Assembly (NCBI GenBank): GCA_016195985.1
Contig: JACPYP010000026.1
Coordinates: 1-59,387, forward strand
Origin: Acidobacteriota bacterium
Lineage (GTDB): Bacteria; Acidobacteriota; Holophagae; Holophagales; Holophagaceae
Length of the DNA stretch: 59,387 nt
Direction of reading: 5' to 3'
A program made the position numbers and the translations under genes. Shown piece after piece: positions 15,618-40,147 of the stretch. The notes below the pieces were generated by a model. It worked only from the letters and a program-made list of their open reading frames with translations. It did not search any database and had not been told where the DNA came from. Numbering within the stretch: the first letter of the stretch is position 1; each line of letters begins with the position of its first letter.

Positions 15618-16748
15618 GTGCTGGCGATGTGGGTTCCTGAACTGCCGTTCCAGTTGGCCTGCGGCCGGGATGGGGCGCTGCGGGACCGGCCCCTGGCTTT
15701 CCTGAACCCCGAGAGTCCCCGGAGCCCCAGCCTCTGGTTCGTGAACCGCCTGAGCCGGGCCGAGGGATTGGCCCCGGGCATGCCCATGGATCGGGCCCTG
15801 CGGGCCGTGCCGAGCCTGCGGGTGTTGGATCCGGCGCCACAGATCTGGTGGGAGGCGCAGGGCAGCCTCGGCGGGTTCCTCCAGCACTGGACGCCCCAGG
15901 GCCAACTTGGGCGTCTGGGAGAAGCCCTGGTGGAACTCCAGGGCACCCAGCGGATTTTCGGTCCATTGGCTGACACCGCCGAGCGCATGCGGCGGGAGTT
16001 GAACGTTCAGCATGGGTGGACCAGCCACGGAGGCTTGTCCCTGAGCGCCACCGCGGCCCAGATCGCTGCCCGCGCCGAACACCATTTGGAACTGGTCACC
16101 GACGGAGCCGAGGCCGCCTTCCTGGCCCCCCAGCCTCTGCGGCGCCTGCCGGACCTGGCGCCCCGCCTGCGGGACCGTTTCCACCGCCTGGGACTGCGCT
16201 GCTTCGAGGATCTGCAGCCGGTGCCCCTGCCAGTGCTGGTGGAACTGACGAATCCCAAGCTGGCGCCGGATCTGCGGGCCCGGGTGCGCGGCGAGGACCG
16301 GCCCAGGCTGCCCTTGCTCACGGAGCGTCCCGGCCACGCGCGGCACAGCTGGCGCCTGCAGCCGCCCCGCCTGCCAGAGGATGTGGCCCTGGCGGCGCAC
16401 TGCCTGGACTGGCTCTGGTCCGATCCGAGGCATCCCCGGAAGCTGGTGTTGCGCTGGTGGGACGTGGATGGCGAACCCCACGGCTGGCGGGCGGCAGCGG
16501 AGGATCTCACCGCTCCGGCCCTGATCCTGGCCCGCCGCATCCAGCAGGCCTTCCTGGCGAAAGCCACCCGGCGTCTCCTGGTGCGGGAGGTGGAGCTGCG
16601 GCTGGCCTGGGGGCTGGGTCAGGAGCGGAGCCTCTTTCAGGATCCACTCCAACAGCGCCTGGATCGCCTTGAACCTGCGCTGGCCCGCCTCCGCCGCCGC
16701 TTTCCGGACAGATCCGTTCTGCCGGGGTGGGTGGGGCAGGGAGCCTGA
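15618..16748 (+). CDS. imuB: ImuB-like Y-family polymerase homologue
   Basis: A 376-residue protein related to the Y-family polymerase fold but without a recognisable catalytic acidic triad, as in ImuB, the mutasome hub that links the beta clamp to DnaE2 in error-prone translesion synthesis. Recognisable parts include WVPELPFQLACGRDGA, FVNRLSRAEGLAPGMPMDRA (typical Y-family opening), and the helix-hairpin-helix-like APQPLRRLPDLAPRLRDRF. It is shorter than many ImuB proteins (about 500). The GTG at 15618 is chosen because ttggagg lies 5 nt upstream; ATG 15627 is the alternative. dnaE2 starts 2 nt after its stop. No imuA is adjacent. Confidence 0.8.
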   Translation: MLAMWVPELPFQLACGRDGALRDRPLAFLNPESPRSPSLWFVNRLSRAEGLAPGMPMDRALRAVPSLRVLDPAPQIWWEAQGSLGGFLQHWTPQGQLGRLGEALVELQGTQRIFGPLADTAERMRRELNVQHGWTSHGGLSLSATAAQIAARAEHHLELVTDGAEAAFLAPQPLRRLPDLAPRLRDRFHRLGLRCFEDLQPVPLPVLVELTNPKLAPDLRARVRGEDRPRLPLLTERPGHARHSWRLQPPRLPEDVALAAHCLDWLWSDPRHPRKLVLRWWDVDGEPHGWRAAAEDLTAPALILARRIQQAFLAKATRRLLVREVELRLAWGLGQERSLFQDPLQQRLDRLEPALARLRRRFPDRSVLPGWVGQGA

Positions 16749-16750
16749 TC

Positions 16751-19747
16751 ATGTTCGCCCTAGGCATTTCCGACTTCAGCCTGGGGGAAGGTGTCTACCC
16801 CGCGGCCCAGTTGCTGCGGGTGGCCCGGGGCCTGGGCTACCGCGATCTGGTGTGCTGGGACCGGGGCCTGGCAGGCTATCCCAAGCTGCGGGACACCCTG
16901 GAGTGGATCCACAAATCGCGCGAGCTGGAGGGCCTCCCGCCGGATCCCCAGTGGACGGGCTTCCGCCTGCACGTGGGCAGCCGGTTCACCTGGCGGGGCC
17001 ATGCGTACGGGGCGCTGCCCTTCAGCGATGGGGGCTATGCCGCGCTCAACCGCCTGCTCTCGGCGCAGGCCCACGACGCGGCGCCGGGGCCCGACATTCC
17101 GGGCCTGGGCGCGCCTGAGCCGCCCCGGGACTGCGTGCTGCTGGCCGAGGATCTGGCGGGCCTGGACGCGCTGCTGCGCGAGGGGTTCTACGCCGCGCTG
17201 CTGGCCCATCCCTGCCGCGCGCAGGAGGCGCGGAAGGCCCTGGCCGCGGGGCTGGAAGTGGTGGCGCCCCAGGTGCTGCGCTTCCGCACGGCGGAAGGCC
17301 TGGAGATGCACCGGCTCAAGCGGGCCATCGACCAGCAGTCGACTCTGGTCCGCACCGAGGCCCTGTGGCAGCCCCCAGAGGCTGCGGTGTCCCGCGCCGA
17401 ATGGGAATCCCGCTTCCCCTCCGCCGAGCCCGCCGTGGAAAAAGCCACGGCGGCGGTTCTGGAGCGGATCGCGGGTTGGCCGATCCACTGGGGGCATTGG
17501 GTGCTTCCCGCGCCGTTGGGCAAGGAGAACTCGGACATGGACGCGCTGCTGCGGGAGCGGGTGCGGGCGGGCGTGATGGAGCGCTTCCGGGACGCGGACG
17601 GGCGCATCCTCGCCCGCATGGAGCAGGAGCTGGATCTCATCTCGTTCAGGGGTTTCGCCCGCTACTTCCTGCTGGTGCAGGACATCGTTCAGGCGCTGCA
17701 GAGCAAGCCCCGCATCTGCGGCCGGGGCAGCGGCGCGGCCTCGCTGGTGAGCTATGCACTGGGCCTCAGCAATGTGGATCCCGTGGCCACCAACCTCATG
17801 TTCGAGCGCTTCCTCACCAGGGAGCGGACGGATCCGCCGGACATGGATATCGACTTCGCCTGGGACGAGCGCGAAGAGGTCATCCAGGCCGTGTTCGACC
17901 GCTACGGCCGCCACCGGGTGGCCATGGTGGCCAATCATGCCTTCTTCAAGGCCAAGGGCGCCCTGAGGGCCGTGGCCCAGGCCCACGGGCGCCCCGATCA
18001 CGAGTTGAAGCAGCTGGCCCGCTACGTGCGCGGCTGGGAAGGGGGGCTGGAGCGCGCCTCGGAGAATCCCGCGTGGGACGTGATCCTGCGCCAGGCCGCG
18101 GCGCTCAAGGGCCACTTCCACCAGTTCTCCGTGCATCCCGGCGGCACCATCGTCACGCCCGGGCCCATGTGGGAACATGCCGCCTTCCAGCCCGCGCCGG
18201 CCAAGGAAAAGGTGTCCACCACCGCCTGGGACAAGGATGGCGTGGAGAACTACGGGCTGGTGAAGATCGACCTGCTGGGAAACCGCAGCCTCGCCGTGAT
18301 CCGTGACGCCTACGAGGTGCTGGGCGACGGCGTGCCGAAGGATCCCGGTACCCGCTCGCGGGAGGATCCCGCCGCGCAGGATCTGCTGAAGCGGGGAGAC
18401 AGCATCGGCGTCTTCTACGTCGAGAGCCCCGCCACCCGGCAGCTTCAGCAGCGGGTGGGGAAGGGGGATTTCGAAACGCTGGTGATCCACAGCAGCCTTA
18501 TCCGCCCCGCGGCCTACCGTTGGGTGGACCGCTACGTGAAGCGCAGCCGGGGGGAGGAGGTCTGGGAGCCCAGCGATCCGGTTTTCGGGCAGCTCCTTTC
18601 CGACAGTTTCGGCGTGCTGGTGTACCAGGAAGACGTCATCAAAGTGTGCGTGGAGCTGGCGGGCTGGAGCCATCACGAGGCCGACCAGCTGCGCAAGCTG
18701 CTGGGCAAGCCCGACTGCGAAAAGAAACTGCCCTTCTTCGAGGCGCGGTTCCGGCGCGGCTGCGCTGCGCGCGGCGTGAGGCCTGCCACGGCGGATGAAT
18801 CCTGGGACATGATCCGCACCTTCCAAGGCTACTCGTTCTGCAAGCCGCACTCCGCCAGCTATGCCCAGGTGAGCTTCGAGAGCGCCTGGATCAAGGTCCA
18901 TCACCCGGCGGTGTTCTTCGCCTCGGTCATCACCAACCAGGGCGGCTACTACCCCGCCATCGCCTACCTGGGCGATGCGCGCCGCCACCGCCTGGTGGTG
19001 CGGGGCCCCGACGCCGACCTTTCGGTCTGGCCCTTTCGCGCGGAAGGCGGGCAGGCCCTCCGCGTGGGGCTCATGCAGATCCACGGAGCCATCAAGCAGG
19101 AAGTGCTGGACCTGCTTGACGAGCGGGAGCGGCACGGCCCCTTCGAGCACCTGGATGATCTGCTGGGCCGCGTGAAGCTGTCCGTTACCACGGCCGAGGC
19201 CCTTTGCGCCGCCGGAGCCTTCGACCGCTGGGCGCCGGACGGGGACCGCACGCGATTGATGTGGGCGCGCCTGGGCGGGGTGCCGCCAGGCGTGCGCCCG
19301 CGTCCCACGGATGTTTTCGACCGCGCCGATCTGGAGATGGCGACCCTGGGGCTCACCTTGGAAATCCATCCGGCAGCCCTCGCCCGCGTGCGGAAGGGGG
19401 GCGGGCCGGACCGCGCGGCGGATGCTGGCTACAGCACCAGCCTGAGTGCGGCTCGGCCGGGCCCAGGCGCGGGAGGCTCCATGTCCCCAAGCGCCGCCAA
19501 GCGCGGAATCCCCGGACGGGATCGCCTGCGCTTCTGGGCCCTGGTGGTGGCGGACAAGGAAGTGGCCACCGAGAAGGGCGAGCGGATGCAATTCATCACC
19601 TTCGAGGATGAGACCGGCCTTTGCGAAGCCGTGGCCTTCCCCGATGCTCTCCGCAAACGCCAGCGGCCCTTCCGCGTGGGCGATGTCGTTCCCGTCAGCG
19701 GCAGGGTCACCTTGCAGGACGGGTTGCCGGTGCTGGAGGTTCAGTGA
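16751..19747 (+). CDS. dnaE2: Error-prone DNA polymerase DnaE2 (ImuC)
   Basis: A C-family DNA polymerase of 998 residues, slightly short for DnaE2. The palm aspartates are present in DPPDMDIDFAWDERE and in YGLVKIDLLGNRSLA. Also seen are CGRGSGAASLVSYALGL, the HFHQFSVHPGGTIV block, GVLVYQEDVIKVCVELAGWS and a C-terminal OB fold (RLRFWALVVADKEV). The N-terminal PHP domain is degenerate: MFALGISDFSLGEGVYPA lacks the usual metal-binding histidines, so no PHP proofreading is expected. A low-complexity Gly/Ser/Ala linker (about residues 880-920) precedes the OB fold. It is co-transcribed with imuB, pointing to damage-inducible mutagenesis. Confidence 0.92.
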   Translation: MFALGISDFSLGEGVYPAAQLLRVARGLGYRDLVCWDRGLAGYPKLRDTLEWIHKSRELEGLPPDPQWTGFRLHVGSRFTWRGHAYGALPFSDGGYAALNRLLSAQAHDAAPGPDIPGLGAPEPPRDCVLLAEDLAGLDALLREGFYAALLAHPCRAQEARKALAAGLEVVAPQVLRFRTAEGLEMHRLKRAIDQQSTLVRTEALWQPPEAAVSRAEWESRFPSAEPAVEKATAAVLERIAGWPIHWGHWVLPAPLGKENSDMDALLRERVRAGVMERFRDADGRILARMEQELDLISFRGFARYFLLVQDIVQALQSKPRICGRGSGAASLVSYALGLSNVDPVATNLMFERFLTRERTDPPDMDIDFAWDEREEVIQAVFDRYGRHRVAMVANHAFFKAKGALRAVAQAHGRPDHELKQLARYVRGWEGGLERASENPAWDVILRQAAALKGHFHQFSVHPGGTIVTPGPMWEHAAFQPAPAKEKVSTTAWDKDGVENYGLVKIDLLGNRSLAVIRDAYEVLGDGVPKDPGTRSREDPAAQDLLKRGDSIGVFYVESPATRQLQQRVGKGDFETLVIHSSLIRPAAYRWVDRYVKRSRGEEVWEPSDPVFGQLLSDSFGVLVYQEDVIKVCVELAGWSHHEADQLRKLLGKPDCEKKLPFFEARFRRGCAARGVRPATADESWDMIRTFQGYSFCKPHSASYAQVSFESAWIKVHHPAVFFASVITNQGGYYPAIAYLGDARRHRLVVRGPDADLSVWPFRAEGGQALRVGLMQIHGAIKQEVLDLLDERERHGPFEHLDDLLGRVKLSVTTAEALCAAGAFDRWAPDGDRTRLMWARLGGVPPGVRPRPTDVFDRADLEMATLGLTLEIHPAALARVRKGGGPDRAADAGYSTSLSAARPGPGAGGSMSPSAAKRGIPGRDRLRFWALVVADKEVATEKGERMQFITFEDETGLCEAVAFPDALRKRQRPFRVGDVVPVSGRVTLQDGLPVLEVQ

Positions 19748-27773: not shown

Positions 27774-27808
27774 GGTGGACCAGTGTCTTTTCTTCGTAGG
27801 TGGACCAG
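27774..27808 (+). repeat. Short direct repeat upstream of the SGNH gene
   Basis: ggtggaccag occurs at 27774-27783 and 27799-27808, spaced 25 bp, in the 148-bp gap before the SGNH hydrolase gene. It may be a regulator site; nothing else supports that. Confidence 0.4.
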
Positions 27809-27900
27809 AACCTGGGCGGGATTTGGGGAAGGATGGGTTCGGGCTGCCTCTGGGGGGCTGTCCGGACATCCATTTTATTTCCTCGCTCCCGGAATGCGCC

Positions 27901-29685
27901 ATGAACCGATCCCGCCTCCCCTCTCTACTCCATTCCTTTCCGAAACGCTCCCGGATGCGGCGCCAGTGGTGTCGCAGCCTGAGCGGAGCGTTGCTGCTTC
28001 TCGCCGCGTGGCACTGCGGGGGAAAGCCGGAACCCGGCAAGGCCTCTTACGCCGAGCCTCCGGCCACGCTCGCCATCACGGCACAACCTGAGAACCAGAC
28101 GGTGGCCGCGGGGCAAGCGGCCACTTTCAGGGTGGCGGCGACAGGCGCGGCGCCGCTGAGCTACCAGTGGAAGAAGAACGGAACGGTCCTTGGCGGGGCC
28201 ACCTCATCGAGCTGCACCACTCCGGCGACGACCGCTGCGGACAGCGGAGCCGCCTTTTCAGTGACGGTTTCCAACGCCGCGGGGCATGTGGACAGCCAAA
28301 CGGCGACGCTCACGGTGACCGTCGCATCGGTAGCGCCCATCATCTGCGCCCAGCCTCAGAAACAGACCGTGGCTCAGGGCAAGACGGCCACCTTCAGCGT
28401 GTCGGCCTCTGGCACTGCGCCGCTAAGCTACCAGTGGAAGAAGAACGGAACGGTCCTTGGCGGGGCCACCTCATCGAGCTGCACCACTCCGGCGACGACC
28501 GCCGCGGACAACGGAGCCGCCTTTTCAGTGACTGTCTCCAACGCCGCGGGGCAGGTGGACAGCCAAATGGCGACGCTCACGGTGCTGCCGCCCCTTGGGG
28601 GCGGCCCTCCCCAGCCGATGCCCGTCATCAGCCGGGGCGTGCCGGCCTATGGGAGCGAGCCCAATCCATCCAGCGCGAACGACGATTCCTACGGCTCCGA
28701 CTACAACGTTCCGCCGGGCGGATGGATCGCCTACGATTTGGACGCCGTGCCTGCCGCCCAGCGGGGGAACGTCCTCCTGGCCTGGTACAACACGGGAACC
28801 CCGCGCTTTGACAACGGCCACCCCTTCGCGCCGGAACCCACCTACGGGTTGATGACGGCTTACACCATCGAGATCCACCCCGATGCGGGGGCCACCCTGC
28901 CGGTGGACGGATGGGAACCGGTGCTCTCCGTTACGCAGAACGACCGGCATTCCCGGCAGCATGTCTTCGACTTGAAAGGCTGCCGCTGGATCCGCGTGAA
29001 AGTCGAAGCCGGCGATGCGCCTTCCTCCTTCAACCTGGATGTGTACGACGCCCGGCTGGGGACGGACGATTCCTGGCTCTTTCTCGGCGATTCCATCACC
29101 CAGGGGGCCATGATGCAGACCCCCGATATCTGGGGCAGCGGATCGGGAGATCCCAATGTCAGTGGCGCTTCAGCCTTCGCCCAATTGATCCATGCGGGGG
29201 CCCCGGCCTTCTTCCCGGCCCAGGAGAACGGCGGGATCGGAGGGATCAAGGCCTCGGACGCCCTCCCCCTGCTGGATGAGTGGCTGAAGGGTTTCCCGGG
29301 GCGCTACGTGGGGTTGAGCTACGGCACCAATGATGCCAACAGCGCCAACGACCTGGGCGCTGACACCTTCTACGAGATCATGAAGGCCATGGCGCTGAAA
29401 GTGGTCGCGGCGGGCAAGGTGCCGGTCATCCCGACCATCCCATGGGCCCGGGACGCCGCCTACGAGGATCACATACCAGCTTTCAACGCGGCCATCGCCC
29501 GGCTCTACCAGGATGTGCCTGCGATCCTGAGGGGGCCGGACCTTCACGCCTACTTCTCCGCCCACCGGGACCAGATCCGGGGCGACAATCTGCATCCCAC
29601 GGCGGCCGGGTCGGCCGTCTACCGGAAGCTCTGGGCCGACGCCATGCTGGCCGCCGTGTATGGCGTCACTCCCGGGGTGTCGTAA
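27901..29685 (+). CDS. Exported SGNH (GDSL-type) hydrolase with two Ig-like domains
   Basis: A 594-residue exported protein. A hydrophobic leader (GALLLLAAWHC) may be a non-canonical lipoprotein signal. Two Ig-like domains follow (about residues 58-142 and 147-231), nearly identical to each other. A beta-rich domain of about 150 residues comes next, then an SGNH hydrolase with block I LFLGDSITQG (Ser), block II GGIGG (Gly), block III YGTNDANS (Asn) and block V DNLHPT (Asp-His). The likely role is deacetylation or esterase action on carbohydrate outside the cell. The start at 27901 is uncertain; ATG 27955 would still include the leader. No clear ribosome-binding site is seen. Confidence 0.88.
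   Translation: MNRSRLPSLLHSFPKRSRMRRQWCRSLSGALLLLAAWHCGGKPEPGKASYAEPPATLAITAQPENQTVAAGQAATFRVAATGAAPLSYQWKKNGTVLGGATSSSCTTPATTAADSGAAFSVTVSNAAGHVDSQTATLTVTVASVAPIICAQPQKQTVAQGKTATFSVSASGTAPLSYQWKKNGTVLGGATSSSCTTPATTAADNGAAFSVTVSNAAGQVDSQMATLTVLPPLGGGPPQPMPVISRGVPAYGSEPNPSSANDDSYGSDYNVPPGGWIAYDLDAVPAAQRGNVLLAWYNTGTPRFDNGHPFAPEPTYGLMTAYTIEIHPDAGATLPVDGWEPVLSVTQNDRHSRQHVFDLKGCRWIRVKVEAGDAPSSFNLDVYDARLGTDDSWLFLGDSITQGAMMQTPDIWGSGSGDPNVSGASAFAQLIHAGAPAFFPAQENGGIGGIKASDALPLLDEWLKGFPGRYVGLSYGTNDANSANDLGADTFYEIMKAMALKVVAAGKVPVIPTIPWARDAAYEDHIPAFNAAIARLYQDVPAILRGPDLHAYFSAHRDQIRGDNLHPTAAGSAVYRKLWADAMLAAVYGVTPGVS
28150..28317 (+). repeat. Intragenic Ig-domain repeat, copy 1
   Basis: A 168-bp DNA segment nearly identical to 28417-28584 (period 267 bp, 89 codons). 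It encodes the core of the first Ig-like domain (LSYQWKKNGTVLGGATSSSC). Identity extends to third codon positions, so the duplication or homogenisation is recent. Confidence 0.9.
28417..28584 (+). repeat. Intragenic Ig-domain repeat, copy 2
   Basis: The second copy of the unit at 28150-28317, encoding the core of the second Ig-like domain, with a few substitutions (for example Ser to Asn in the AADSGAAF/AADNGAAF segment). Confidence 0.9.
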
Positions 29686-29694
29686 CCTGGATCC

Positions 29695-31641
29695 ATGCTG
29701 GTGGATCCTATTTCGTTTCAAGGCCGCGTTTTGTTCCTCACCGAGGATCCGGGGAAGGTTGTCCGCCAGTTGGCCGGTGAGGATTTGGAGGCGGCGGAGG
29801 CCGTGCCCCTGCGGGACCAGATCAGCACCGATGAAATCACGCCGGCCTTCATCTGCTACCACTTCGACGGGAAGCTGGGGGACTTCTCCTACCTGGGCTT
29901 GAAGTGCGGCGACACGTTTCCGCTGAAGGAGGGCAGCGTGCGCGCAGGCGGGTTTTCCGTCAGCGTGGCGGGCAAGCGCAGGGGCAAGGGCAGCAGCCGA
30001 GAGGCCAGTCCGTACGCTGAATTGTGCGCAGGCATCCGTCTGGTCATCGCGGAGAGTTTCGAGCGCATCTACCGCCAGAATGCCCAAAACCTGGGCCTGC
30101 TCACCAGCACGGACTTCGGGCTCATCCCGCGCATCCGGCGCGGTGAGGCCATCCCCATGGCGGAATTCACCGCGGGCCTGGATGCGGTCACCGCCGGAAT
30201 CGTTCAGCGCGGCGGCCTCTTTGCCTACAACGCGGCGCGGCTGGCAGGCGAGGTGGTGCCGCCCCTCCCGGAGCAGGCGCCGCGGCCCATGACCTATGCG
30301 GAGAAGCTGTTGGCCCGGCAGGCGGTGGTGGATGCGGCCCGGGGCCGGACCGGCCTGGCCTCGGTGAAACCCGGTGACGGCCTCTTCGTGCAGGCCCACT
30401 GGCGCTTCAGCCATGAGTACGTGACCCCCATGGCCGCAAGCTTTCTGGAGAAGGCCCTGGGGCCGGACGTGGCGCTGCGGGATCCTGGCAGCATCCTCGC
30501 CTTCCGGGACCACCTCACCTTCCTCCACCGCAGCATGAAGGCCGAGCACCGGGCCATGGGACTGCTGGAGGTGGCAGAGCGCCTGAAGCCGGTCCAGGAG
30601 GCCTTCTGCCTGAAGCATGGCATCCGGCTCCACGGCGAGCTGGCGGATGGTTCCGGCAGTGAAGGCATCTGCCACGCCATCATGGCGGAGCGCTACGCCT
30701 GTCCGGGCCAGGTGGTGGTGGGGACGGATTCCCACACGCCCCATGCGGGCGCCCTGGGCTGCCTGGCCTTTGGCGTGGGCACCACGGACATCGCCTGCGC
30801 CTGGGTGACGGGAGATGTGCGCGTCACCGTGCCCCCCACGCTGCGCGTGCGCCTGCGGGGGCGCCTCCGCCCGGGCGTGTCCGCCAAAGACATCGTGCTC
30901 CACCTCCTGGCCCGGCCCCTCATCCGGGAAGGCGGCGCCATCGGACACGTCATCGAGTACCTGGGCGAGGCCCTGGCGGACCTCGACACCGATGAACGCG
31001 CCACCCTCACCAACATGGCGGCGGAAATCGGCGGTTTCAGCGGGCTGGTGGCGCCGGATGCGGAGACGCTCCGTTTCATCCGCGAGCGGCGCGGCGTGGA
31101 TATCACCCTCGAATCGTGGATGCGGGGCGACGAAGGGGCGGAGTACGCGCACACGCTGGATGTGGACTGCACCGAGCTCGGCCCGATGCTGGCCCGCCCC
31201 GGTGATCCGGGGAACGGCATCGCCCTGGCGGACCTGGACAAGCCCGTGCCCATCCACATCGCCTATCTGGGCAGTTGCACCGGGGGCAAGCGGGAGGATC
31301 TCCGGCGGGCCTACGAAGTGGTCCGCGCCGCCGCGGCCGAAGGCCGCCGCGTGCCCGAGGGCGTCCAGTTCTTCGTGCAATGCGGCAGCGAGGCGGTGCG
31401 CCATTACGCGGAAAAGCAGGGCTGGATGGCGGCCTTCGAGGCCGTGGGCGCCATCGTGCTGGGCAGCTCCTGCGGAGCCTGCATCAATGCGGGACCCGGC
31501 GTGTCCAACCACCCCGGCCAGGTGACCATCAGCGCCATCAACCGGAATTTCCCCGGCCGCAGCGGCCCCGGCCAGATGTGGCTGGCCAGCCCGGCTACCG
31601 TAGCGGCCAGCGCCCTGGCGGGGCGCATCGCGGGCGCCTGA
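29695..31641 (+). CDS. Aconitase/isopropylmalate isomerase family protein, swivel domain first
   Basis: A 648-residue [4Fe-4S] hydro-lyase of the aconitase superfamily. The small (LeuD-like) swivel domain is N-terminal: ISTDEITP (43-50), LKEGSVRAGGF and the substrate-binding GSSREASPYAEL (99-110). The large catalytic domain follows from about residue 200. Its cluster cysteines are in SHTPHAGALGCLAFGVGTTD, YLGSCTGGKREDL and LGSSCGACINAGPGVSNHPG. This domain order resembles AcnB without its HEAT-like N-terminus, and is the reverse of AcnA. The substrate (citrate, homocitrate, isopropylmalate or a methylated malate) cannot be assigned; no leu, gltA or prp genes are nearby. Confidence 0.88.
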   Translation: MLVDPISFQGRVLFLTEDPGKVVRQLAGEDLEAAEAVPLRDQISTDEITPAFICYHFDGKLGDFSYLGLKCGDTFPLKEGSVRAGGFSVSVAGKRRGKGSSREASPYAELCAGIRLVIAESFERIYRQNAQNLGLLTSTDFGLIPRIRRGEAIPMAEFTAGLDAVTAGIVQRGGLFAYNAARLAGEVVPPLPEQAPRPMTYAEKLLARQAVVDAARGRTGLASVKPGDGLFVQAHWRFSHEYVTPMAASFLEKALGPDVALRDPGSILAFRDHLTFLHRSMKAEHRAMGLLEVAERLKPVQEAFCLKHGIRLHGELADGSGSEGICHAIMAERYACPGQVVVGTDSHTPHAGALGCLAFGVGTTDIACAWVTGDVRVTVPPTLRVRLRGRLRPGVSAKDIVLHLLARPLIREGGAIGHVIEYLGEALADLDTDERATLTNMAAEIGGFSGLVAPDAETLRFIRERRGVDITLESWMRGDEGAEYAHTLDVDCTELGPMLARPGDPGNGIALADLDKPVPIHIAYLGSCTGGKREDLRRAYEVVRAAAAEGRRVPEGVQFFVQCGSEAVRHYAEKQGWMAAFEAVGAIVLGSSCGACINAGPGVSNHPGQVTISAINRNFPGRSGPGQMWLASPATVAASALAGRIAGA

Positions 31642-31705: not shown

Positions 31706-32566
31706 ATGCGAAACCCCCGCATATGCACCATGGCCCTTGCATCGGCTTGCCTGTTTGGGGAGGCGCCAAAGGAAGCCGCGTTCATCGAAGCGCCGAGGCC
31801 GAGGGTGCAGATGGATTCGCCGTCGGATCCCGATCGTTTCTCCAACCTGCCTAAGTTGGTTTTCGACGACGCAGGGCAAGTGGTCACCGCTCCGGCCCGA
31901 TGGGATTCATCGGATTGGTTGAAGGCCGGGGGGGCGGTGCTGGCGCTGGGAACGGCCATGGCGCTGGACCGTTCCGCTGAGCAGGAGATGGCCGGGCGCC
32001 GCACGGCCTCTGCCGACCGCTTCGCCAAAGCCGTGCAGAATCTCGGCGGCACGCCCAGCGTGCTCATCGCTGGGGGCACCTGGCTGGCGGGCGTGGCCTT
32101 CAAGGATCCGGAGATCCGCGCCACCGGCGTCGATGCCATGGCCACCATGGGCATCGCCCAGTTGCTCCTGGCCCTTCCGCTCAAGGAGATCACGGGCCGC
32201 TCCCGGCCCGAGGCAGGCAAGGGCGCCCACGACTTCCATCCCTTTGGCGGCGGCCAATCCTTCCCCTCGGGGCACACCACCCAGGCCTTCGCCCTGGCCT
32301 CGGTCATTGCTGAGCACGCGGATGCGCCCTGGGTTTCCGGCCTGAGCTACGGCCTCGCCGGGCTCGTGGGCCTGGCCCGCATCGAGCAGCGCCAGCATTT
32401 CTTGTCCGACGTGGTGGCGGGCGGCCTCATCGGCACCTTCGTGGGCAAGACCGTGGTGCGGTACAACCAGGCCAGGCGTGGCGAGGCCGGATCCAAGGTG
32501 GCCATGAGCTTCACGCCGCTGATCCAGCCCGGAGGCTATGGAGTCAGCCTCGCCCTGAGGTTTTGA
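31706..32566 (+). CDS. PAP2-family phosphatase
   Basis: A 286-residue protein with the three PAP2 motifs: KEITGRSRP, FPSGHTTQAFA and ARIEQRQHFLSDVVAGG. A short N-terminal hydrophobic stretch (MALASACLFGEA) may be a signal peptide. PAP2 enzymes dephosphorylate phosphatidic acid, undecaprenyl pyrophosphate or small phosphate esters, usually on the outer face of the inner membrane. It is convergent with and overlaps dgkA by 23 bp. PAP2 and DgkA catalyse opposite conversions between diacylglycerol and phosphatidic acid, so the pairing is suggestive. Confidence 0.9.
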   Translation: MRNPRICTMALASACLFGEAPKEAAFIEAPRPRVQMDSPSDPDRFSNLPKLVFDDAGQVVTAPARWDSSDWLKAGGAVLALGTAMALDRSAEQEMAGRRTASADRFAKAVQNLGGTPSVLIAGGTWLAGVAFKDPEIRATGVDAMATMGIAQLLLALPLKEITGRSRPEAGKGAHDFHPFGGGQSFPSGHTTQAFALASVIAEHADAPWVSGLSYGLAGLVGLARIEQRQHFLSDVVAGGLIGTFVGKTVVRYNQARRGEAGSKVAMSFTPLIQPGGYGVSLALRF

Positions 32567-32915
32567 CGCAGAGCGACCAGAGGAATGCGAGGAAGGTGCC
32601 TGCGGCGCCGAGGCTGAACACCAGCACGGCCCCGGCGGCGCAGTCCTTGGCCACCTTGATGGCTGGATGGATCTCGGGATGCAGATGGTCGAGGGTCTGT
32701 TCCAGGGCCGTGTTCAGGAGTTCGGCTCCCAGCACCAGTCCGCAGTTCATCAGCAGCAGGGCCCACCAGAGGGGCGCGGGGCGCGTCGCCGCGAGCACCA
32801 CGACCACCCCGAGGGCCATCAGGGCCTGCGAGCGGAAGCTGGCCTCCTGCCGCCAGGCGCTGCGGATGCCCTGGAGGCTGTAGGAGAGGCGATGGTGGAA
32901 GGGCTGGTTCTTCAT
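32544..32915 (-). CDS. dgkA: Diacylglycerol kinase DgkA-type
   Basis: A 123-residue three-helix inner-membrane kinase that phosphorylates diacylglycerol, or undecaprenol in some phyla. The family motifs GAELLNTALEQTLDHL and IKVAKDCAAGAVLV hold the catalytic Glu and nucleotide-binding residues. Length and helix layout match family members. It overlaps the convergent PAP2 gene at its 3' end. Confidence 0.93.
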   Translation of the reverse strand: MKNQPFHHRLSYSLQGIRSAWRQEASFRSQALMALGVVVVLAATRPAPLWWALLLMNCGLVLGAELLNTALEQTLDHLHPEIHPAIKVAKDCAAGAVLVFSLGAAGTFLAFLWSLCVKTSGRG

Positions 32916-33040: not shown

Positions 33041-34993
33041 ATGTTTGATCCTGTCCTCGCCGCCCGCTATCGCGCCCTGCTTCTGACAGGCCTGGCGCGT
33101 CGAGGCGCGCCGATTTTGGAGTCCAGCCCCAGAGTCCTGGTGGTGGACGTGGCCCGGCAAAGGCTGGGTCTGATCGAGTCGGGCCAGCTGGTGTTCGAGG
33201 CGGTCATCTCCACGGCCCGGAATGGCCTGGGCTGCGAGGAGGGCTCGTACCGCACGCCGACAGGCTGGCATCGCATCCACGCACGCATCGGCGCGGGCGC
33301 GGAACCCGGCAGCGTCTTCCGCAACCGGGTGGCCACCGGCGAGGTCTGGCGCGGCGAGGCCCGGGAGGAGGACCTGATCCTCACCCGCGTGCTCACCCTG
33401 GATGGGCTGGAAGAGGGATGGAACCGCGGTCCCGGGCGGGATTCCCTGGAGCGCTTCATCTACCTGCACGGCACCAACCAGGAGGGGCAGCTGGGCACGC
33501 CCGTGTCCCACGGCTGCGTGCGCCTGGCCAATGCCGAGGTGCTCGACTTGTTCGAGCGGGTGGCCGAGGGCGACCTGCTGCTCATTGCCGAGGGAACGCC
33601 GGGGGATGGTCTGGGGCTGGGACGGTTGCATTTCGCGGGCGTGGGAGGCAGCGGCATGAGCGCCCTGGCCCAGTTCGTGGCCATGAAGGGCGGCCGGGCC
33701 AGCGGCAGCGATCGCAGTTTCGACCGGGGCCAGCGCGCCGGGGCAAGGGCCCAGCTGGAGGCCCTGGGCGTGATGATCCATCCCCAGGACGGATCGGGTT
33801 TGGAAGGAGATTGCTCGGCCCTGGTGGTGTCCACCGCCGTGGAGGAGGAGGTGCCCGACGTGGCCGCGGCCCGGCGCCTGGGCGTGCCCGTGCTGCACCG
33901 CTCGGAACTGCTGGCCCACCTGGTGGCGCGGCACCGAACAGTGGCGGTGACGGGAACCAGCGGGAAATCCAGCACCGTGGCCATGATCTTCGAGATCCTG
34001 CGCGGCGCCGGGCGTGACCCTTCCGTCATCACCGGCGGCGAGCTGGTGGCCCTGCAGCGGGAAGGCCTTTGGGGCAATACCTGGGCGGGGGCCTCGGACC
34101 TGCTGGTCATCGAGGCCGACGAAAGCGACGGTTCCGTGGTGCGCTACCATCCCGCCGTGGGGGTGCTGCTGAATCTGCAGCGGGACCACAAGGAGATGGA
34201 TGCCGTGGCGGAGATGTTCCGTTCCTTCCGCGTCCAGGTGCGTGAAGCCGTGGTGGTGGGCGAGGCGGAGAACCTGCGGGAATTCGCCGAGGGGGGTGCG
34301 ACCTTCGGATTTGGGGAAGGGGCGGATTTCCGCGCCGAAGGGCTTTCGCTTGGCCCGGAAGGCTCCGCTTTCCGCGTGGGAGGCGCTGACTTCCATGTGC
34401 CCGTGCCCGGGCGGCACAACGTCGAAAACGCCCTGGCGGCCATCGGAGCCTGCGCGGCGCTGGCGGTTCCTTTTGAAGCCATGACGGGGCCGCTTTCGGC
34501 CTTCCAGGGCGTGGCCCGCCGCTTCCAGGTGCTGGGGGCCGCGTCCGGCGTCGCGGTGGTGGATGATTTCGGCCACAACCCCGCCAAGGTGGCGGCCTCC
34601 ATCCGGGCGGCCCGCCTGAGGTTGGCCCGGACGGGCGGGCGCCTGCTGGCGGTGTTCCAGCCCCATGGTTTCGGCCCCCTGAAATTCCTGCGCGCGGATT
34701 TCGTGGAGAGCTTCGCCGCCGAGTTGCACGCGCAGGACCGGCTCTGGTTTCTGGATGTGTTCTATGCCGGTGGCACCGCCGCCAAGGACATCAGCTCCAG
34801 CGATGTCGTCGGCGACCTGGCGGCGCGGGGCGTCCAGGCCGAGCATGCCCCTTCGCGGGAATGGCTGATGGACAGGCTCGCCGCCGAGGCCAAAGAAGGA
34901 GATCTCATCCTGGTCATGGGGGCGAGGGATCCCTCGCTGACGGATCTGGCCAAGGCCATTCTGGCGGCTTTGCCAGGCGGCGGTTCGAGGTAG
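33041..34993 (+). CDS. L,D-transpeptidase (YkuD) - Mur ligase (MurC-type) fusion
   Basis: A 650-residue two-domain protein. Residues 30-183 form a YkuD L,D-transpeptidase catalytic domain: VDVARQRLGLIESGQLVFEA, IYLHGTNQEGQLGTP (His143) and SHGCVRLANAEV with catalytic Cys159. Residues 195-645 form a Mur ligase: FAGVGGSGMSALA, P-loop GTSGKSST (305-312), EADESDGS (359-366, MurC-like rather than the Mpl-type EADEYD), HNVENALAAIGAC and DDFGHNPAK. There is no signal peptide and no membrane segment, so both domains should be cytoplasmic, unlike usual YkuD enzymes. A cytoplasmic L,D-carboxypeptidase-plus-ligase for muropeptide recycling is my inference. mazG follows 9 nt downstream. Confidence 0.9.
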   Translation: MFDPVLAARYRALLLTGLARRGAPILESSPRVLVVDVARQRLGLIESGQLVFEAVISTARNGLGCEEGSYRTPTGWHRIHARIGAGAEPGSVFRNRVATGEVWRGEAREEDLILTRVLTLDGLEEGWNRGPGRDSLERFIYLHGTNQEGQLGTPVSHGCVRLANAEVLDLFERVAEGDLLLIAEGTPGDGLGLGRLHFAGVGGSGMSALAQFVAMKGGRASGSDRSFDRGQRAGARAQLEALGVMIHPQDGSGLEGDCSALVVSTAVEEEVPDVAAARRLGVPVLHRSELLAHLVARHRTVAVTGTSGKSSTVAMIFEILRGAGRDPSVITGGELVALQREGLWGNTWAGASDLLVIEADESDGSVVRYHPAVGVLLNLQRDHKEMDAVAEMFRSFRVQVREAVVVGEAENLREFAEGGATFGFGEGADFRAEGLSLGPEGSAFRVGGADFHVPVPGRHNVENALAAIGACAALAVPFEAMTGPLSAFQGVARRFQVLGAASGVAVVDDFGHNPAKVAASIRAARLRLARTGGRLLAVFQPHGFGPLKFLRADFVESFAAELHAQDRLWFLDVFYAGGTAAKDISSSDVVGDLAARGVQAEHAPSREWLMDRLAAEAKEGDLILVMGARDPSLTDLAKAILAALPGGGSR

Positions 34994-38785: not shown

Positions 38786-40147
38786 TTGAGCCCACTTCCT
38801 TTCCACCTGGTCACCCTCACCCACCCCGAGTGGGAGCAGGCCCTTCATTGCGCCAAGCACCTCGGCGAGGACGCCCTGCCGGAATTGCGCCTGGATCTCT
38901 TTCCCGAGGCCGATCCCGAAGCCCTGGTGGATGCCCTGAGGCGGCGCTGCCTGGTGACCTGCCGGCGGGTCTCCGAAGGAGGCCGCTGGCCCGATGAGGA
39001 TGAAGCCGGACGGATGGCCCGCCTCTTCCAGGCCCTCAAGGGCAAGCCCCAGTGGATGGATCTGGAGTGGGACCTGCCCATCCCTCCCGACATCCAGGCG
39101 GCCCGCACGCACCTGCGGCTGCTGCGCTCTATTCATGTGCCTCCTGAAACCTTCGATCTTGCGGAGCGTCTGGCGCATCTTCCTGAGGGCGACGCCTTCA
39201 AATGGGTGGGCTGGGCGGGCCGCCTGGGCGACAACGGCCGCCTGAAAGCGCCGCTGGCCTGGGCCCGGGATCACGGCCTCCGCCTGTCCGCCTTTCTCAT
39301 GGGCCCCAAGGGCCTGCCCAGCCGGGCCCTGCAATCGGCCTGGGGCGGGGCCTTCACCTATGCCGCTCCGGACGATGGCCCCGCCGCCGCGCCGGGCCAA
39401 TTGCCCCTGTCCGCCCTGCGGGCCTGGCGCAGCGCCAAGCTGCACCCCGGCCACGGCCTCTGCGGGGTCATCGGCGATCCCGTGCTGCACTCCCGGGGGC
39501 CGGCCTTCCATAATCCCCGTTTCCAGGCCGCCTTCAAGGATCTGCTCTACCTCCCGCTGGTCTGCGCCGAAGCCTCCGAGGCGCTGGAGGCGCTGGAGGC
39601 GCTGGAGGTTCTGGGCCTGAGCATCACGGCCCCCTTGAAGCTGGCGCTGCCCGAGGCTTTGGGCTTGCAAGGCCCTTTGAATACCCTTTGGCGCCGGTCG
39701 CCGGGCGCGCCCTGGCAGGGCGCCAACACGGATGCCGAGGCCTTTGAACAATCCCTGTCGCATTTGGAGCCCGGACCGGTGCTGCTGCTGGGCGAGGGGG
39801 GCGTGGCCCGCGCCAGCCGAGAGGTGCTGGAAAGGACGGGCCGGGCGGTGCTCCAGGCCTCGCGCCGCGCGCCGGCCACGCCAGCAGCCGTGGCGGCCTT
39901 CGCCCCCGTGGGCCTCGTGCAGGCGACCAGCCTGGGCATGAACGCCGAGGATCCAGCGCCGTTTCCTGAACTGCTGGAGGCCTCCCGGGCCAGTGCCCGG
40001 TGGGCCGTGGAATGGATCTACAAGGAAGACACCGCCTTCGCCCTGTGGTCCCGGGAGGCCGGCCTGCGGGTGGTGGCCGGAGCCACGCTCTTCGAGGCCC
40101 AGGCGGAGGCCCAGAGCCGGCGGTTCATTGAGGGGTGCGGGGGGTAG
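38786..40147 (+). CDS. AroD-AroE fusion: type I 3-dehydroquinase and shikimate dehydrogenase
   Basis: Catalyses two consecutive shikimate-pathway steps. Residues 1-220 form a type I dehydroquinase TIM barrel: LPELRLDLFPEADPEALVDA, CLVTCRRVSEGGRWPD, WMDLEWDLP, and FKWVGWAGRLGDNGRLKAP with the Schiff-base Lys. Residues 225-450 form shikimate dehydrogenase: GVIGDPVLHSRGPAFHN, LSITAPLK, LNTL, GANTDAEAF and a nucleotide-binding GEGGVARASREVL. The dehydroquinase half is divergent but keeps key residues. A TTG start at 38786 has agga 7 nt upstream and no better start is evident. A triplicated 9-bp unit near 39580-39606 gives the EALEALEAL stretch. Confidence 0.88.
   Translation: MSPLPFHLVTLTHPEWEQALHCAKHLGEDALPELRLDLFPEADPEALVDALRRRCLVTCRRVSEGGRWPDEDEAGRMARLFQALKGKPQWMDLEWDLPIPPDIQAARTHLRLLRSIHVPPETFDLAERLAHLPEGDAFKWVGWAGRLGDNGRLKAPLAWARDHGLRLSAFLMGPKGLPSRALQSAWGGAFTYAAPDDGPAAAPGQLPLSALRAWRSAKLHPGHGLCGVIGDPVLHSRGPAFHNPRFQAAFKDLLYLPLVCAEASEALEALEALEVLGLSITAPLKLALPEALGLQGPLNTLWRRSPGAPWQGANTDAEAFEQSLSHLEPGPVLLLGEGGVARASREVLERTGRAVLQASRRAPATPAAVAAFAPVGLVQATSLGMNAEDPAPFPELLEASRASARWAVEWIYKEDTAFALWSREAGLRVVAGATLFEAQAEAQSRRFIEGCGG

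Follow-up and report, generated by a model that had tools for sequence, protein, structure and literature searches.

A YkuD domain fused to a MurC-like peptide ligase in Holophagaceae, a predicted cytoplasmic enzyme for reuse of cell-wall peptide

The fusion gene and its occurrence

The window analyzed here is the whole 59,387-nucleotide contig JACPYP010000026.1 (assembly GCA_016195985.1) of an Acidobacteriota bacterium from the family Holophagaceae; it is one contig of a 4.26-Mb genome that is 98.3% complete. The gene under study occupies positions 33041 to 34993 of the forward strand. It starts with ATG and forms a single uninterrupted frame of 650 residues, in which a YkuD domain is followed by a Mur ligase. 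The YkuD domain (residues 31-179) scored 70.7 bits against a Pfam cut-off of 23.4, and the Mur_ligase (196-298), Mur_ligase_M (303-470), and Mur_ligase_C (493-629) domains were each over their Pfam cut-offs. Across 18 aligned fusions, no variation was observed at H143, S156, G158, C159, and R161 or in the P-loop GTSGKS (305-310). An earlier, sequence-only reading had described a complete YkuD site and a complete Mur ligase in one frame, and the Pfam domains, the invariant motifs, and the open reading frame all agree with it. The features are as follows.

33041..34993, forward strand: whole fusion gene, 650 residues; N-terminal YkuD domain (predicted L,D-carboxypeptidase) and C-terminal MurC-like peptide ligase
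33131..33577, forward strand: YkuD domain, residues 31-179 (Pfam); best curated relative ElsL
33467..33469, forward strand: His143, predicted catalytic; invariant in the 18 fusions
33515..33517, forward strand: Cys159 of SHGCVR, predicted catalytic; S156, G158, C159, and R161 invariant in the 18 fusions
33626..33934, forward strand: Mur ligase N-terminal (UDP-N-acetylmuramic acid, UDP-MurNAc-binding) domain, residues 196-298 (Pfam)
33947..34450, forward strand: Mur ligase central ATPase domain, residues 303-470 (Pfam)
33953..33976, forward strand: P-loop GTSGKSST, residues 305-312 (alignment)
34517..34927, forward strand: Mur ligase C-terminal (amino substrate) domain, residues 493-629 (Pfam)
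34562..34588, forward strand: DDFGHNPAK, residues 508-516; Asn and Lys in place of the MurC second His and Glu, in 105 of 105 clade rows
34658..34678, forward strand: QPHGFGP, residues 540-546; Gly543 and Pro546 in place of MurC Arg377 and Arg380 (H. influenzae numbering)
34919..34930, forward strand: GARD, residues 627-630; clade-specific Arg629

The protein had also been described as lacking a signal peptide, and none was apparent from hydropathy or from the position of the start. The frame is closed by a stop 14 codons 5' of the ATG, which is itself the earliest ATG, GTG, or TTG of its frame, so there is little space for an overlooked signal peptide. Within the first 60 residues, the peak 13-residue Kyte-Doolittle mean was 1.38. 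The same peak ranged from 0.78 to 1.52 over the 18 aligned fusions, some rows of which start at the match and not at the gene start, and from 1.78 to 2.63 in five comparison proteins with export-like N-termini. A hidden signal peptide 5' of the chosen start was rejected on the basis of the upstream stop, the start position, and an N-terminus with no hydrophobic core like those of the five comparison proteins.

A locus scan of bacterial and archaeal genomes, which used exact peptide patterns from the query and was biased to close relatives, returned 62 loci. Both domains shared one open frame at 48 of them; the labels are Geothrix, Holophagaceae, or Acidobacteria for 43 of these and Methyloceanibacter or Hyphomicrobiaceae for the other five. 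The remaining 14 loci consisted of two broken frames (L052, L056), two loci cut by contig ends (L044, L059), an unfused Holophagaceae ligase (L062), and nine alpha- and deltaproteobacterial ligases that lack YkuD (L060, L061, L063-L069). We also searched 247 genomes of the phylum with a profile of the clade to which the ligase half belongs. Clade members were found in 21 genomes, all within Holophagaceae, that is, in 21 of the 22 genomes of that family (the sole one without a member is of 1.2 Mb), and in all 21 a YkuD domain lay in the same frame as the ligase. No match fell in the gap between 609.8 and 359.5 bits; the lower-scoring group was read as ordinary MurC, and nine of its proteins fall with MurC in the tree described below. 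In one Methyloceanibacter locus (L049:7951-11436, reverse strand), the fusion gene is convergent with the gene of a protein of 1161 residues that combines Scaffold and YkuD domains and has an export-like N-terminus. Three genomes of the Methyloceanibacter group had 13-16 YkuD matches apiece.

The two halves of the protein

The best YkuD-type curated model for the N-terminal half was that of ElsL (NF040925), with 132.2 bits over residues 33-184. L,D-transpeptidase (LDT) models reached 19-24 bits over about 40 residues, the best being 23.9 bits over 40. The YkuD half folded alone gave a predicted local distance difference test score (pLDDT) of 70.5. Confidence was low for loops 62-71, 110-112, and 117-137; therefore, nothing was read from its pocket. 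The model superposed on B. subtilis YkuD (4a1i) with Z of 13.2 and a root-mean-square deviation (rmsd) of 2.4 over 114 aligned residues, and no ElsL structure was present among the structure matches listed. The YkuD fold is thus shared with the periplasmic L,D-transpeptidases, which are exported enzymes, but no export signal was apparent here. Judged by its sequence, the YkuD half looks like a carboxypeptidase, closer to ElsL than to the periplasmic transpeptidases.

ElsL from Acinetobacter is described as a leaderless, cytoplasmic, Cys-dependent YkuD protein that converts disaccharide tetrapeptide and not pentapeptide (PMC8649774). The fusion resembles it in the leaderless YkuD domain, the catalytic Cys, and the proposed trimming of tetrapeptide to tripeptide in the cytoplasm. 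It differs in that ElsL is free-standing (model length 164) and has a separate Mpl partner, whereas here YkuD is fused to a ligase. The survey described in the same paper applied an upper limit of 200 residues, which kept out any fusion of this kind. Of the idea that a cytoplasmic, fused YkuD domain departs from the usual periplasmic location, the part concerning the missing export signal stands; a cytoplasmic YkuD is not new, given the ElsL precedent (PMC8649774).

The ligase half scored 299.5 bits (300.8 in the genome search) with the MurC model TIGR01082, below its cut-off of 335.1. A separate murC, sought as a check on the fusion, was found in the same genome with 545.6 bits, which excludes the fusion as the sole MurC. 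In ten more genomes with clade members, a full separate MurC exceeded the cut-off in eight; G007 had a partial one (335.2 bits), and in G005 (0.9 Mb) none was seen by the MurC search. In a tree of 76 rows, the clade formed one side of a branch with a Shimodaira-Hasegawa-like approximate likelihood ratio test (SH-aLRT) support of 99, and the 21 MurC rows were grouped with support of 96. Fusions from Holophagaceae and from Methyloceanibacter together constituted one group (SH-aLRT 100). Since the root was a single long Mpl row from E. coli, the separation is trustworthy and the root is not.

Differences from MurC were found in the amino-substrate site, which we compared between 105 clade rows and 21 MurC rows; some genomes are represented twice, and many rows are close kin. 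MurC Arg377, Arg380, Tyr346, His348, and His376 are believed to bind the incoming amino acid (PMC3060825). The Arg377 column contained Gly in 103 of the 105 clade rows and Arg in 20 of the 21 MurC rows, and the Arg380 column contained Pro in 102 clade rows and Arg in every MurC row. The second His of the MurC HHP motif was replaced by Asn, and the Glu two places beyond it by Lys, in all 105 clade rows, whereas all 21 MurC rows retained His and Glu. The Gly of the MurC GAG motif, also present in 21 of 21, corresponded to Arg in 104 clade rows (Arg629 in the fusion). His376 and His348 were retained in the clade, and Tyr346 was changed to Phe in 103 rows. In the P-loop, Ser replaced the His of MurC GTHGKTTT in 100 of the 105.

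Nevertheless, the P-loop, the EADES(D) motif, and the Mur three-domain fold are all present in the ligase of the fusion. In the model of the full protein (pLDDT 83.7, predicted template modelling score, pTM, 0.84), the ligase superposed on H. influenzae MurC (1p3d) with Z of 46.0 and rmsd of 1.9 over 436 residues, and on Mpl (3hn7) with Z of 30.7 and rmsd of 4.9 over 431. Only Mur-type ligases and cyanophycin synthetases appeared among the structure matches listed for the full model. The ligase is therefore MurC-like with an altered amino-substrate site. The label "MurC-type" given in the sequence-only reading is correct for relationship, as seen in the tree, and for fold; it is very unlikely to hold for an actual MurC. 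MurC is the nearest relative in sequence and structure and has the ATP-site motifs in common with the fusion, but the score below the cut-off, the separate murC elsewhere in the genome, and the altered L-Ala site make it very unlikely that the fusion serves as MurC of this cell.

Two further families invite comparison. With the Mpl model TIGR01081, the fusion scored 112.7 bits, below the cut-off of 388.7. Mpl would share with it the proposed reaction and the position in the recycling pathway, as suggested by the partners and the genome content, but the fusion lacks the Mpl motifs and stands apart from the one E. coli Mpl row in the tree. The MurC-Ddl fusion (NF011171, known to us as a profile match) likewise joins a MurC-family ligase to another peptidoglycan enzyme; its partner is a D-Ala-D-Ala ligase of synthesis and not a recycling hydrolase.

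Carboxypeptidase partners and the recycling context

The strongest evidence for a role in recycling is partner replacement. In an alphaproteobacterium from yak rumen (L068), an S66 carboxypeptidase (LdcA family) was fused at the C-terminus of the ligase, and at four more loci (L064, L066, L067, L069) an S66 gene adjoined the ligase on the opposite strand. In a sample of 240 alphaproteobacterial genomes, 28 had a clade member (386-656 bits); all other matches were at or below 353 bits and were read as MurC. S66 proteins were searched for with a profile built from four clade-locus S66 sequences, and one of these loci, L069, is L093 among the 28. An S66 gene lay within about 1.5 kb of the ligase (less at contig ends) at 22 of the 28 loci, 13 times divergent and nine times downstream on the same strand; L101 was counted as divergent, although the script called it convergent from uncut frames. 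None of the 21 MurC loci had an S66 neighbour. Genome-wide, every one of the 28 ligase-bearing genomes had S66, also the six where it is not adjacent, against 23 of the 212 genomes without the ligase (Fisher p 7e-23, uncorrected for kinship).

The exchange was also seen within Holophagaceae. The unfused ligase at L062, a locus that is partly N, was about 70-82% identical to that of the window over the readable pieces. Its start is one codon beyond an in-frame stop, so it can carry no YkuD; at its 3' end, the stop codon shares bases with the ATG of an S66 gene. The genome with this locus (G496) had four S66 matches and two YkuD matches elsewhere. In the genome of the window, a genome-wide search found no S66 and one YkuD domain, that of the fusion. 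The S66 partners tested, from L068 and L107, fitted the muramoyltetrapeptide carboxypeptidase model best, under its cut-off, which suggests the stem peptide as their substrate. LdcA is described as a Ser-His-Glu enzyme (PMC8649774). S66 (PF02016, PF17676) is unrelated to YkuD and is missing from the window's genome, yet it accompanies the same ligase clade in Alphaproteobacteria and at L062 and is fused to it in L068. Since ElsL-type YkuD and LdcA-type S66 proteins have stem-peptide L,D-carboxypeptidase activity in common, the substrate of the ligase is most simply the trimmed peptide.

For the six alphaproteobacterial ligases that have no S66 beside them, Pfam revealed no known L,D-carboxypeptidase among ten neighbouring genes, most of which are unrelated. 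An M19 dipeptidase was located by the L104 ligase (L154:3826-4992) and an M17 aminopeptidase by the L115 ligase (L157:3619-5025); these are perhaps other stem-peptide enzymes. Two genes near the deltaproteobacterial ligase of L060 (L060:4320-5069 and L060:3208-4212) encode a protein of the YceG family and a TIM-barrel protein of the xylose isomerase-like type, and the sequence of L061 had the same order.

In the genome of the window, a muropeptide importer of the AmpG family was found (428.9 bits against a cut-off of 350). The murE of this genome has the DNPR motif and fits diaminopimelate models; among the genes of the AmpG (L161) and murC (L163) neighbourhoods, NCBIfam was run on AmpG, murC, murE, and murF only. 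An ornithine-type peptidoglycan, which we take to be that of Holophaga, was considered as well and set aside in view of this murE, and a literature search on it gave nothing useful. The murC-family search in this genome, which would also catch relatives, returned only murC, the fusion, and matches in the murD/E/F region; the model of mpl itself was not run. No canonical mpl was found in the 240 alphaproteobacteria at E ≤ 1e-80, a search in which E. coli, the sole control, was matched. Agrobacterium and Caulobacter are described as having neither Mpl nor a recycling L,D-carboxypeptidase, and their stem peptides are suggested to be broken down to amino acids (PMC9790009, PMC13046382, PMC11980594). 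Mpl homologues are mentioned for other Caulobacteraceae (PMC11980594). Our sample may miss those species, or their matches may be other ligases.

Proposed reaction, alternatives and significance

We propose that the fusion is probably a cytoplasmic two-step enzyme for reuse of wall peptide, which would trim tetrapeptide and ligate the resulting tripeptide to UDP-MurNAc; both activities, their order, and any channelling are predictions from sequence. Tetrapeptide from wall recycling would be imported, either free or still on sugar. The YkuD half, as an L,D-carboxypeptidase, would remove the terminal D-Ala at Cys159. The ligase half would then use ATP to join the tripeptide (L-Ala-gamma-D-Glu-diamino acid) to UDP-MurNAc, and MurF would complete the UDP-MurNAc-tripeptide as precursor. 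In this way, one chain would do the work of LdcA or ElsL together with Mpl. Ligation of tetrapeptide is described as damaging to E. coli and A. baumannii (PMC13046382, PMC8649774), and tethering may keep the untrimmed peptide from the ligase and the precursor pool. The extra carboxylates of the peptide may be contacted by Lys516 and Arg629. The bifunctional trim-and-ligate enzyme suggested in the sequence-only reading thus gains comparative evidence from the separate murC, the partner replacement, and the altered site, and its activity is a prediction. For the other suggestion made there, a regulator of precursor pools, no supporting result turned up, and no direct test was made.

A broader interpretation, which we favour with reservation, is that the clade is a second family of ligases for murein peptides, closer to MurC than to Mpl and present in Holophagaceae, part of Alphaproteobacteria, and some deltaproteobacteria. 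Its members would have been coupled repeatedly to a carboxypeptidase that gates the ligase substrate, either YkuD (fused in front) or S66 (fused behind or encoded next door). The protein from the window would be the tightest form, a single-chain tetrapeptide-to-UDP-MurNAc-tripeptide synthase.

Several observations weigh against these proposals. The ElsL score of 132 bits is under the model cut-off of 270 (model type "exception"). MurC fits the ligase better than Mpl does, both by profile and by fold, and the Mpl motifs PRSNT and FFDKRSK are absent from the 16 clade rows aligned and present in E. coli Mpl (loop CAFFDKRSK). The clade member L060 scored 348.3 bits, over the murC cut-off. At E ≤ 1e-90, a second MurC-like match was missing from five of the sampled ligase-bearing alphaproteobacterial genomes, all of 1.2-1.6 Mb; at this threshold, 45 of the 240 genomes gave no MurC-like match at all, so it misses MurC in some genomes. 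The partners are not uniform either. Six of the 28 alphaproteobacterial ligases lack an adjacent S66, and S66 also occurs in two of 13 distinct fusion genomes (among 19 distinct genomes queried). A genome-wide search revealed no YkuD and no S66 in the L060 genome, and neither was found in the flanks read at L061, L063, and L065, where a genome-wide search was not made; some clade members are thus without a known carboxypeptidase partner. Finally, no AmpD-type Amidase_2 domain was found in the window's genome, despite the AmpG-family importer.

A first alternative is unlikely: whole tetrapeptides or mixed peptides would be ligated to UDP-MurNAc, and YkuD would trim the UDP-MurNAc-tetrapeptide to tripeptide afterwards, as proofreading. 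The domain pairing and the partner replacement fit this order, too. Mpl is described as taking tetrapeptide slowly (PMC3060825), and tetrapeptide precursors are reported to arise when trimming is blocked (PMC8649774). However, ElsL cleaves disaccharide tetrapeptide and so can act before ligation (PMC8649774), and the sequence gives no clue to which step comes first.

We consider it improbable that the fusion is a second MurC isoenzyme that would load UDP-MurNAc with L-Ala or some other amino acid, its carboxypeptidase domain serving to sense or regulate the supply of precursors. Such a role would suit the intact ATP-site motifs and the nearest profile and fold, which are those of MurC, and fusions of MurC are known, as in the MurC-Ddl model NF011171. 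It disagrees with the replacement of the L-Ala-site arginine pair by Gly (103 of 105) and Pro (102 of 105), with retention of a separate murC, and with the link of the clade to two unrelated carboxypeptidase folds, one of which, S66, has no counterpart beside the 21 MurC loci.

It is most improbable that the trimmed peptide is ligated to an acceptor other than UDP-MurNAc or that the pairing serves carbon and nitrogen salvage with the ligase on a side path. The L060 genome without a recognized carboxypeptidase of either kind and the AmpD-type amidase not found in the window's genome would be compatible with it, but the N-terminal UDP-MurNAc domain is present and MurC-like, and the best-fitting model for the S66 proteins of L068 and L107 was that of muramoyltetrapeptide carboxypeptidase, although they stayed under its cut-off. 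A missed frameshift or an assembly error joining two genes, for which no evidence turned up, has practically no chance of being the explanation, since the identical domain order was found in one frame at 48 of 62 related loci in many assemblies, including named Geothrix and Methyloceanibacter strains.

The surroundings of the fusion gene were also inspected. Its stop codon lies 9 bases ahead of a MazG gene, and it is preceded by a divergent diacylglycerol kinase gene. This prokaryotic diacylglycerol kinase gene (32544-32915, reverse strand) overlaps tail-to-tail with a PAP2 phosphatase gene (31706-32566, forward strand), the two being immediately 5' of the fusion; their products could act on lipid carriers. 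They separate the fusion gene from that of an aconitase-family protein (29695-31641) with reversed domains, in which Aconitase_C (residues 91-137) stands before the catalytic part (237-643). In Geothrix campi (L009, 4058-6004), the stop codon of the aconitase-family gene overlaps the start of the fusion gene. Elsewhere in the window, a type I 3-dehydroquinase is joined to a shikimate dehydrogenase-like part (38786-40147), both under the NCBIfam cut-offs, and a GDSL-type hydrolase domain occurs with two immunoglobulin-like stretches (27775-29685). At 15618-19747, an IMS-domain polymerase gene stands immediately before a gene of the DNA polymerase III alpha type, a pair that resembles a mutagenesis cassette.

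A cytoplasmic YkuD carboxypeptidase (ElsL), a tripeptide ligase (Mpl), and the recycling pathway itself are already known. In the open PubMed Central literature, among the matches listed, no title or abstract start described a YkuD-Mur ligase fusion or a MurC-related analogue of Mpl, nor was a swap of two unrelated carboxypeptidases beside one ligase found there. The results call for caution, as a MurC-like match is not always MurC. If our interpretation is true, about one in nine of the sampled alphaproteobacteria (28 of 240) and 21 of the 22 sampled Holophagaceae have a direct route for peptide reuse, hidden because its ligase resembles MurC. Because both steps are tied in one protein, the fusion would also offer a clean test of whether trimming before ligation protects from harmful tetrapeptide precursors. 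Together with the unrelated trimming partners found elsewhere, it would indicate an overlooked route of bacterial cell-wall recycling.

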